A stretch of 64,000 bases of DNA from an uncultured Verrucomicrobia subdivision 3 bacterium. Lineage in GTDB: Bacteria > Verrucomicrobiota > Verrucomicrobiia > Limisphaerales > UBA11358. The notes beneath the pieces were generated by a model that saw nothing but the letters and a program-made list of their open reading frames with translations, ran no database searches and was not told the DNA's origin. The position numbers and the translations under genes are program-made. The stretch covers positions 1 through 64,000 of the forward strand of contig CAIQKM010000102.1 in assembly GCA_903872345.1 (NCBI GenBank), given 5' to 3'. How positions within the stretch are numbered: position 1 is the first letter of the stretch; every line of letters begins with the position of its first letter. Below, piece after piece: positions 35,932-56,985 of the stretch.

Positions 35932-36008
35932 GTAGCAGCCGACGTAAGGAGGCTCAAATATCTTTGGGAGCGCTTATTTATTTGGAGCCTCCTTACGTCG
36001 GCTGCTAC
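35932..36008. repeat. Palindromic element, copy 1 (24-bp perfect inverted repeat)
   Basis: Left arm 35932-35955 begins GTAGCAGCCGACGTAAGGAG; right arm 35985-36008 is its exact complement and ends CGTCGGCTGCTAC; the loop is 29 bases. The same element occurs at 56909-56985. It lies between the CusF-SCO gene and proA. It has no coding capacity and looks like a miniature mobile or REP-type element. Confidence 0.92.
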
Positions 36009-54394: not shown

Positions 54395-55168
54395 ATGCGT
54401 GCGCTGCGATTGTTTTGCCTGTTGCCGTTGTTGTTTATCCTGGGCGCGTGCTCTCATTTAAAAGATACCCCCGCCATGAACCCCGGTCAGACTGCCCACC
54501 AGTTTTATCACGAACGCAAACAGGTATTCACTTCGGATTACCTGTTGTTTTTGCCGGAAGGTTATGCGGCCGGTTCCGCCAAACGTTGGCCGCTGATTTT
54601 GTTTCTGCACGGGGCCGGCGAGCGCGGCACCAATGTGTGGAATGTGGCCAAGCACGGGCCGCCAAAGCTTGACACCAGCGCCACCAACTTCCCGTTTATC
54701 GTCGTTTCGCCGCAATGTCCGGATGGCAAGTTATGGTCCAATGATCTGCTGCTGGCCTTACTGGATGAGATTACCCAAAAGTATGCCGTGGACACGCACC
54801 GGGTGTATCTGACCGGGTTGAGTATGGGCGGGTTTGGTGCGTGGAATTTGGGGCTCAGCTATCCCGAACGCTTTGCCGCGATGGCTCCCATCTGCGGCGG
54901 TGGCGAATTGATCACACCCTTGCTAACCTTGGTTTACAACAATGAACACACGCCGTTCCTCAAGACCCTGCCGATCTGGGCATTCCATGGCGGCAAGGAC
55001 CCGGTGGTGCCGGTGCAGGAATCTGAGCGGTTGGTGGACTATCTCAAAGCGCACGGTGTATCGGACGTGAAGCTTACGATTTATCCTGAAGCCCAGCATG
55101 ATTCCTGGACGCAGACGTATGCGAATCCGGAATTGTTCCGGTGGTTTTTGGAGCACGCAAGGCCCTGA
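54395..55168 (+). CDS. Alpha/beta-hydrolase (esterase) lipoprotein
   Basis: A 257-residue lipoprotein. The signal peptide ends in the lipobox LGAC (Cys19). The hydrolase domain has HGAGERG (oxyanion region), nucleophile Ser in GLSMGGFGAW, Asp in GGKDPVVP and His in EAQHDSW. It resembles the dienelactone hydrolase/phospholipase-carboxylesterase family acting in the envelope. It starts 2 bp after the isomerase stop. Substrate unknown. Confidence 0.85.
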   Translation: MRALRLFCLLPLLFILGACSHLKDTPAMNPGQTAHQFYHERKQVFTSDYLLFLPEGYAAGSAKRWPLILFLHGAGERGTNVWNVAKHGPPKLDTSATNFPFIVVSPQCPDGKLWSNDLLLALLDEITQKYAVDTHRVYLTGLSMGGFGAWNLGLSYPERFAAMAPICGGGELITPLLTLVYNNEHTPFLKTLPIWAFHGGKDPVVPVQESERLVDYLKAHGVSDVKLTIYPEAQHDSWTQTYANPELFRWFLEHARP

Positions 55169-55272
55169 AGTCAGGGCGAGGATGGAGGATTGAGTATAGT
55201 GGCTCGCTAGATTCGCGAAAAGTGCTGGATTTGGGCCGAAACGACACTAAGCTTTAACGTCAGGCGGAATCT

Positions 55273-56280
55273 ATGTTTGAATCCATTAAATTCGAGAATT
55301 TCAAGGCATTGCGTGACACAACGCTGCCGCTTGGCCGGTTCACTCTCATCGTAGGCCCCAACGGGAGTGGCAAAAGCACGGCTCTTTTGGGTTTTTCTGC
55401 GCTCCGAGTTCCCCTCGGTCTCATGGATAATTGCAGTGTTGGAGTGCCTGTTCAAAACGTGGTATCGGTATCTGCCTGTTGGCGTGATGAAGGAACTGAA
55501 ATTTCTGTACAAGCCACTTGGCATGGTAAGCTTGGCTGGAATGGTCCGAATTTTAGATCCGTTTCTCCCATAACACCATTGTCGAATGCTAATATTGCAT
55601 CTGTTGACGTTGCTCTTAACGGCGCGCGGTATTACTCACTTGACGCCAATGCCATTGCGGCTCAAGTGCAATTGTCACCAAACATGGAGTTGGGCCCCAG
55701 CGGTGCCAATCTGGCAGGGGTGCTAGACCGCCTTCGTGATAAATCCCCAGAACGATTTGAAGCCTTAAATGAACAATTGGGCCTTTGGATTCCGGAATTT
55801 AATCGGGTTCTTTTTGAGACCCCTCAAACGGGGCACCGCTCGATTGCGCTGCGCACTCGTGAAGGTGGTCATGTCATCCAAGCGAACAACCTTTCCCAAG
55901 GCACACTCATAGCGCTGGCGTTGCTGACCATTGCTTATCTGCCTGATCCGCCGTCCATCATTTGCCTCGAAGAGCCGGATCGCGGCTTGCATCCTCGGTT
56001 ATTGCGGGATGTCCGGGACGCCCTCTATCGGCTGGCCTATCCCGAAGACTCCAAAGAAAATCGGAAGCCCGTTCAAGTTTTGGCGACAACGCACAATCCC
56101 TACATGCTCGACCTTTTCCGGGATCACCCGGAGGAGATCGTCATTACGGAAAAAATCGGTCTGGAGTCCAAGTTTACCCGGCTTTCGGACCGTACGGATC
56201 TGAAAGAAATACTGGGTGACGCCCCGCTCAGTGAAGTCTGGTATAGCGGTGTTTTGGGAGGTGTCCCTGCTGGAAAATGA
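55273..56280 (+). CDS. AAA family (OLD/RecF-like) ATPase of a two-gene module
   Basis: A 335-residue ATPase of the AAA_21/OLD-RecF type. Walker A is GPNGSGKST (28-36), the ABC-like signature is NNLSQGTLIALALL (about 205-218), Walker B is IICLEEPDRGLHP with Glu233-Glu234, and the switch His274 lies in ATTHNPYM. The N-terminus FESIKFENFKALRD is standard. There is no fused TOPRIM domain; instead the next gene, overlapping by 4 bp (ATGA), encodes a TOPRIM-like protein. Many such ATPases serve anti-phage systems (OLD, PARIS, retron effectors). Confidence 0.85.
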   Translation: MFESIKFENFKALRDTTLPLGRFTLIVGPNGSGKSTALLGFSALRVPLGLMDNCSVGVPVQNVVSVSACWRDEGTEISVQATWHGKLGWNGPNFRSVSPITPLSNANIASVDVALNGARYYSLDANAIAAQVQLSPNMELGPSGANLAGVLDRLRDKSPERFEALNEQLGLWIPEFNRVLFETPQTGHRSIALRTREGGHVIQANNLSQGTLIALALLTIAYLPDPPSIICLEEPDRGLHPRLLRDVRDALYRLAYPEDSKENRKPVQVLATTHNPYMLDLFRDHPEEIVITEKIGLESKFTRLSDRTDLKEILGDAPLSEVWYSGVLGGVPAGK

Positions 56281-56912
56281 GAGTCGCCTTGTACGCAGAA
56301 TCTTCGGCCGATGAAGCTGCATTGGGAATCATCAGTGAAGCGGTTCTTGGCGTTGCGATTGAACCGGTGGGTCATGCCGGACTGCGGCATCGTGGCTGGC
56401 CGGCTGTCCGAACCGCCTTGCGTTCCATTCTGTTGGAATTGCATTATCACACCGATGCGGAAGGATTTGTTTTTATTGTTGATTCAAATGGATCAACACC
56501 CCATCTGCCGGCGCATAACTTGGCCGATGCCCATGACCCAACCTGTCGCCTTTGTGAATTGCGCCAAATAGCACTGGCGGTGCAGCGGCAAGTGCGCCCG
56601 CGACCGCATCTGCCTCCATTAAAAATCGCCTTGGGAACAGCGGTTCCGGCCATCGAGGCATGGCTTTTGTGCGGTATGAATCATCAAGTTTCGGAGGCGA
56701 CTTGGCTGAATGGCATTCGGCAAGGCCAGATTCCCTATTCCAGGCCAGACCTGAAGAATCAACTTTACGGAACCACCCGCCCGTCTCTCGCAGTTGAAAC
56801 GGAAGTGATGACGCAACGTGCGTCACACTTGGCGGCAAATCTGCAAAATCTTAGGGCGCAATTTCCGAACGGCTTTGGCGCGCTGCACGCGGATTTGATG
56901 AATTGGAAGTAG
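56277..56912 (+). CDS. TOPRIM/DUF4276-like partner of the ATPase
   Basis: A 211-residue protein. LYAESSADEAALGII gives the TOPRIM-style E-x3-D (Glu8, Asp12). GFVFIVDSNGS places Asp69 after a hydrophobic strand with Asn71 where a second acid is usual. PAIEAWLLCG (125-133) matches the E-A-W block of DUF4276 and AriB-like proteins. CRLC (90-93) may bind metal. Probably the nuclease-type effector governed by the ATPase; the Asn change leaves activity in doubt. Its TAG stop is the first part of the palindromic element at 56909-56985, so the C-terminus may have been set by that insertion. Confidence 0.75.
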   Translation: MRVALYAESSADEAALGIISEAVLGVAIEPVGHAGLRHRGWPAVRTALRSILLELHYHTDAEGFVFIVDSNGSTPHLPAHNLADAHDPTCRLCELRQIALAVQRQVRPRPHLPPLKIALGTAVPAIEAWLLCGMNHQVSEATWLNGIRQGQIPYSRPDLKNQLYGTTRPSLAVETEVMTQRASHLAANLQNLRAQFPNGFGALHADLMNWK

Positions 56913-56985
56913 CAGCCGACGTAAGAGGCTCAAAAACAGATGAACGTGTCCAAAGATATTTGAGCCTCCTTACCTCGGCTGCTAC
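56909..56985. repeat. Palindromic element, copy 2
   Basis: Left arm 56909-56931 begins GTAGCAGCCGACGTAAG; right arm 56962-56985 ends CTCGGCTGCTAC; they pair except for one deleted base and one mismatch. Same element as 35932-36008. The TAG in each outer GTAGC is the stop codon of the flanking gene on each side (plus-strand stop 56910-56912, minus-strand stop 56982-56984). Confidence 0.92.

Follow-up and report, generated by a model that had tools for sequence, protein, structure and literature searches.

Bacterial systems that couple an OLD-type ATPase to a TOPRIM domain are treated as anti-phage in the literature cited here, where OLD proteins are divided into classes (PMC10568477). In PARIS, the "class 4" OLD system, an AriA hexamer is described as sequestering AriB, which goes on to cut transfer RNA (tRNA) once a phage protein has been sensed (PMC12409363). 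For OLD itself, the residues given for the metal site are E400, E404, D455, D457, T506, E508, and K562 (PMC6755086). By its description in PMC12796447, Cran1, an archaeal "class 5" OLD-family ATPase/nickase, contributes to cell-cycle progression and apparently plays no part in antiviral defense. Here, we characterize a pair of genes, A and B, located at positions 55273-56912 of a 64,000-nucleotide stretch (the whole of which is referred to as the window) from contig CAIQKM010000102.1 of an uncultured Verrucomicrobia subdivision 3 bacterium. The original prediction, made from the letters of this DNA, had proposed a candidate anti-phage module with a split ATPase/TOPRIM layout. We consider it reasonably probable that the pair encodes a two-protein, ATPase-gated nuclease of a split OLD kind, which would be an acquired abortive-infection-like module in this host and would have a resident role in Opitutaceae.

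Gene A (55273-56280, plus strand) encodes a 335-amino-acid ABC/OLD-type ATPase, and gene B (56277-56912, plus strand) a 211-amino-acid TOPRIM/DUF4276-like protein. As predicted, the two open reading frames (ORFs) overlap by 4 bp, the common bases being ATGA. Searched against Pfam, A matched AAA_21 at 5.5e-27 and no TOPRIM family, in agreement with the claim that it lacks the C-terminal TOPRIM domain of OLD proteins. The ATPase motifs attributed to A are also all present on the plus strand: the Walker A sequence GPNGSGKST at residues 28-36 (55354-55380), the ABC signature-like LSQGT at residues 207-211 (55891-55905), the Walker B/catalytic pair E233-E234 (55969-55974), and the switch histidine H274 (56092-56094). 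In an alignment of 51 A rows that includes the window (A4, picked from the same protein and locus sets as the B alignment below), G28, N30, G33, K34, G210, E233, and E234 were conserved in 51/51 rows and H274 in 49/51. G329 and G330, within the C-terminal G-G-V-P (56257-56268, plus strand), were likewise found in 51/51 rows, and this motif is a candidate contact with B. The sequence of A is that of a complete Rad50/PtuA/OLD-type ABC ATPase. At least 2541 homologues were recovered among 7999 candidates scored, and the defense ATPases that A matched in PADLOC were HEC-01A (PDLC04182, 1.8e-39), mad3 (2.1e-31), and AriA (6.9e-27).

Co-occurrence of the two genes in other genomes, on which the original prediction depended, was found in a species-level genome collection, with 74 of 78 loci having A on the same strand as B and upstream of it. 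Where A is whole, no more than about 275 bp separates the A and B matches. In three loci without A (L044, L075, and L077), B starts <200 bases from the contig start, leaving 74 of 75 testable loci with the pair. The sole full-length B with upstream room yet no A was L059:5054-5698, where the upstream sequence held a single weak 60-residue match to A (E 0.007) on the other strand; a MarR-family regulator and the acyltransferase gene discussed below still lie downstream of this lone B. Broken copies were also present among the 78 loci: A is split over two frames in L049 and matched only to position 246 in L023, and B is split over two frames in L031 and L065. An A-B fusion, which long open frames covering B had suggested for some Opitutaceae, was rejected after inspection of four ORF lists out of six loci (L205-L210), as L205, L206, L207, and L209 have separate frames.

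The window's B matched no Pfam, PADLOC, or NCBIfam family at E ≤ 1, yet at least 395 proteins are homologous to it at E ≤ 1e-3, and a profile search with B contributed 14 new proteins among the 120 matches listed. We aligned 79 B rows (A3), comprising the window's B, 21 of the 120 listed proteins, and 57 of the 78 loci; the loci omitted were the two in which B is split, the fragments L044, L075, and L077, and 16 more of Opitutaceae type. Residues E8, D12, D69, R91, P124, I126, E127, A128, W129, E140, L159, K160, and Y164 were invariant. The predicted E-x3-D, Asp69, and I-E-A-W block are seen in 79/79 rows as E8-x3-D12 (56298-56312), D69 within D69-S70-N71 (56481-56489), and I126-E127-A128-W129 (56652-56663), all on the plus strand, as is the codon of the equally invariant K160 (56754-56756). 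The claim that Asn71 stands in place of the second TOPRIM acid is correct for the window's copy but does not extend to the family, in which 52 of the 79 rows have D at residue 71 (DxD) and 27 have N (DxN); most of the N71 rows belong to the window's clade.

These positions can be set against the metal site of OLD. E8, D12, D69, residue 71, E127, and K160 match that site in order and in the E-x3-acid spacing, and a one-to-one correspondence would make E8 and D12 the counterparts of E400 and E404, E127 that of E508, and, possibly, K160 that of K562. E8, invariant in 79/79 rows, comes after the strand at residues 2-6, just as the TOPRIM glutamate comes after the first strand, and D69, equally invariant, forms the end of the strand at residues 63-69. 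Structural alignments of B (VIA) placed OLD TOPRIM domains at ranks 2 and 4 with middling Z, in lists whose shown rows do not thereby exclude other families; the alignment to 6nk8 starts by pairing model residue 1 with chain residue 393 and, if ungapped, would put E8 near E400. The prediction would have been undermined by a fold unrelated to TOPRIM, and these ranks give no such outcome, though they test it weakly. A sequence search of solved structures with B returned 12 weak matches only (best E 0.11), Foldseek gave no useful match, and profile comparison of B with OLD TOPRIM gave no direct link. Comparison with DUF4276 (PF14103) was more productive: hhalign aligned the two families over 182 columns at 93.3% (P 2.6e-7; control 0.6%), with the DUF4276 side made up of nine proteins, two of them under Pfam's cut-off. 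By individual search, the window's B had no match to DUF4276 at E ≤ 1, and 3 of the 79 B rows matched (best E 0.066). By profile comparison, B thus qualifies as a probable remote homologue of DUF4276.

One feature of B was not seen in the nine aligned DUF4276-matching proteins. Downstream of the DxD position, B carries H76-x3-H80-x9-C90-x2-C93 (56502-56555, plus strand), a putative zinc knuckle whose four residues are complete in 73 of 79 rows. C90 and C93 are lost jointly, in the same three rows (L050, L067, and L079), where H80 is lost too, and the single losses are those of H80 in L005 and L071 and of H76 in L046. A joint loss of the cysteines is what would be expected of a shared metal site, and we infer zinc as the metal.

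We then compared the pair with the closest described systems. HEC-01, the name under which PADLOC lists pairs of AAA_21 and DUF4276 proteins, has the same two-gene layout and ATPase family, and all 51 A rows matched its A-type ATPase at 1e-10. Its partner model HEC-01B (PDLC04202) was weakly matched by 30 of the 79 B rows at E ≤ 1 (best 2.4e-5), whereas the window's B had no match to the HEC-01B, DUF4276, or RloB models. The same genome holds a second pair of clear HEC-01 type (G000:C88:37448-39219; L158:7449-9220), consisting of an AAA_21-type ATPase (L158:7449-8540) followed by a DUF4276 protein (L158:8507-9220; PF14103 2.2e-50), which matched HEC-01A at 6.1e-135 and HEC-01B at 5.4e-77. The catalytic pair is E-E in the window's A but D-E in this second ATPase. 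PARIS also carries an ABC ATPase and a TOPRIM protein on two adjacent genes, a layout that the window's pair would share if B is TOPRIM-like as argued above. However, AriB was matched neither by the window's B (PADLOC, E ≤ 1) nor among the 20 families matched by the 79 B rows, and the prediction that these proteins do not clearly fit PARIS was right. For MADS, beyond the match of A to mad3, 6 of the 79 B rows matched mad4 weakly (best 0.0053) and 1 of 79 matched NCBIfam MAD4 at 0.01, but A fell short of the NCBIfam MAD3 equivalog (97.1 versus a cut-off of 420), and no MADS operon was seen by eye around the pair in the gene lists of 14 loci. With OLD and GajA, the pair has in common the ATPase fold and motifs and the order of E-x3-(E/D), DxD, E, and K; unlike in these single-chain proteins, the TOPRIM-like part is on a separate gene. 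On the tested features, the pair cannot be placed in PARIS, MADS, or DUF4276.

Within its own genus, the pair lies in a stretch of 1788 bp (55194-56981) that is absent from genus-mate G008, in which homology runs up to window position 55193, resumes from 56982, and leaves 74 bp between the same flanks. The A-B pair was absent from the site in 7/7 genus-mates examined, all with both flanks present. Across the window's lineage, B was found in 2 of 59 genomes, namely the window's own and one (G023) of 35 genus-mates, whose copy (L211), close to a contig start, is incomplete, its first part being truncated or scrambled. Upstream of A is an alpha/beta-hydrolase gene (54395-55168; Pfam Abhydrolase_2, 1.2e-13), and because four of the seven genus-mates (G008, G007, G002, and G001) keep this hydrolase without the pair, it is simpler to suppose that the window's lineage gained the pair, with loss from the other genus-mates a less simple alternative. 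The pair in this genome thus seems to have been picked up as a compact insert, probably by transfer. G+C content says little about the origin of the insert (51-55%, against 63-66% on the right side), since the resident hydrolase gene to its left also has 53-58%. By our own reading, we take the gene ahead of the hydrolase to encode a sugar-phosphate isomerase-like protein and the gene 3' of B, on the opposite strand, an rRNA methyltransferase-like protein. In genus-mate G016 (L151:1562-3747), the stretch bounded by the rRNA methyltransferase-like and isomerase-like genes contains one transporter-like and one kinase-like gene, so the site is variable in content.

Beyond the genus, B was present in 22 of 288 genomes of a phylum sample, these being the window's own and 21 from a single family (f36), which we took to be Opitutaceae. 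In a quick tree of A, one branch (SH-aLRT 94) had the 22 Verrucomicrobiota-titled rows all to the same side, and the window's clade (14 rows) stood among rows of Planctomycetota, Acidobacteriota, Armatimonadota, and Methylomirabilota, in a tree where 21 of 48 inner branches are weak.

The distribution in Opitutaceae gives weight to the strongest rival explanation, that the pair is a resident genome-maintenance or stress-response nuclease and not a defense system, inherited vertically in Opitutaceae and present in the window through transfer. In a sample of this family, 127 of 200 genomes matched B, as did 97 of the 147 good ones and 37 of 49 genera, with one match per listed genome except for G540, which had two fragment matches covering different parts. 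Its relative DUF4276 was sparse in the same sample, at 11/200 genomes (6 over the cut-off) and up to 4 matches in one genome. The gene neighborhood is also conserved. Synteny was counted by tblastn because a longest-ORF caller, in its first form, missed B in 20 of 65 loci. Of the 78 loci, 47 carried titles of Opitut*, Didemnitutus, Cephaloticoccus, or Geminisphaera, and 5 with <2.5 kb downstream were dropped; in 40 of the remaining 42, the same acyltransferase/AMP-ligase gene (PF01553, PF00501) followed B on the same strand, no more than 7 kb away, and it was lacking in L035 (Geminisphaera) and L039. Median tblastn identity to L017 was 68% for B, 66% for this acyltransferase neighbor, and 55% for A, making B about as conserved as the neighbor, and an efflux cluster upstream of the pair is common to many Opitutaceae loci. 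A MarR-family regulator lies between B and the acyltransferase in L019, L038, L059, L063, L073, L076, and L078. The common single-copy state and the conserved neighbor raise the standing of a resident role, and the pair looks to have settled into one, vertically inherited, in Opitutaceae. A purely accessory role for the family at large is not supported, given the 127 of 200 genomes and the conserved downstream gene.

Neighbors and mobile elements, too, weigh against a defense module, and here parts of the original prediction fell away. We scanned 129 ORFs around 21 loci other than the window's, mostly outside Opitutaceae and with the last two loci partly covered, with ORFs called by a crude longest-frame rule that lets some antisense frames through. 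Among the best 25 of 51 PADLOC families (1e-10), mad2 occurred in 3 neighbors and the other 24 families had one member each, including one type IIG restriction enzyme and many PD-T4-6 models. Among the best 25 of 96 Pfam families, most were housekeeping, with pseudouridine synthase and Uma2 ("putative restriction endonuclease") in 2 each and PdxJ, triosephosphate isomerase, histidine biosynthesis, and undecaprenyl diphosphate synthase also represented. A defense-island context was therefore not borne out. This is weak evidence against defense, because the clear HEC-01 pair of the same genome also has no island and sits alone among housekeeping genes, with flanking genes that are, by our reading, fumarase-like and methyltransferase-like. 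A tRNA pseudouridine synthase gene lies upstream of A in both L031 and L068, from an acidobacterium and a planctomycete, a context shared across phyla. No B relative was confirmed in viral contigs by a pattern scan of 47 stretches, and none was found in phages or plasmids with the window's B as query. Finally, the palindromic repeat at the right end (56909-56985, with arms at 56909-56925 and 56969-56985), which straddles the insert border and had been taken as a mark of mobility, belongs to a genome-wide family and so does not mark this module. This repeat, TAGCAGCCGACGTRAGRAGGCTC, occurs in the window at 56909-56985 and 35933-36007, with 63 + 66 matching arms across the genome (≤2 mismatches), often in facing pairs ~50 bp apart, and is like a repetitive extragenic palindrome (REP) or miniature inverted-repeat transposable element (MITE).

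What remains of the proposed anti-phage module is the split pair, the homology to defense ATPases, and the profile link to DUF4276, without the island, the mobile palindrome, or the purely accessory role. The resident nuclease finds a published precedent in Cran1 (PMC12796447), as an OLD-type enzyme with a reported non-defense role, yet that protein is archaeal and a single polypeptide, and the comparison is a loose one. Several observations run counter to a solely resident enzyme: the pair is patchy in the window's genus and missing from the site in the genus-mates examined, it is scattered over phyla outside Opitutaceae, its closest named families are defense systems or candidates, and 73 of 200 Opitutaceae genomes (50 of 147 good ones) have no match, so that it is not indispensable there. 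We regard the resident rival as less likely than not. A second rival, in which N71 would make B a nuclease-weak or -dead TOPRIM-like regulator in the window's clade and the pair an ATP-dependent binding switch, is improbable, because although N71 occurs in 27 of 79 rows, those rows keep K160 and every other metal-site position unchanged, the second Asp is also missing from several DUF4276 proteins, and single substitutions of OLD metal ligands, including D457A, are reported in PMC6755086 to have left cleavage not discernibly affected.

We accordingly return to the ATPase-gated nuclease in two pieces, TOPRIM in its catalytic part, as a biochemical reading that is well founded though unproven and that derives from sequence comparison. 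In this model, dimers of A would bind ATP, and B would be kept inactive through a protein interface, perhaps involving the conserved C-terminus of A. On sensing a signal of stress or of phage, A would change its ATP state and free or activate B, which may then cut nucleic acid with two metal ions, either tRNA, like AriB, or DNA, like OLD. A defense role for the window's copy is plausible, and its most likely use would be as an acquired, abortive-infection-like protective module.

More tentatively, and with chances we put a little below even, the family may represent a domesticated split OLD/PARIS-like nuclease with a zinc knuckle, existing as a vertical, single-copy, syntenic pair in Opitutaceae and as a lone ~1.8-kb cassette moving between phyla. 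If so, its resident role would be genome or RNA surveillance, or constitutive immunity, and the B family would define a distinct class of split OLD system. B has many homologues, yet the window's copy is caught by no Pfam, NCBIfam, or PADLOC model, and its H/H/C/C set is a specific, testable feature. Collectively, the same machine turns up as a patchy insert in one lineage and, in another, as a common single-copy pair beside a conserved neighbor, the latter being unusual for an apparent phage-defense module, and a resident role for such a nuclease in bacteria could thus be tested in cultivable Opitutaceae.
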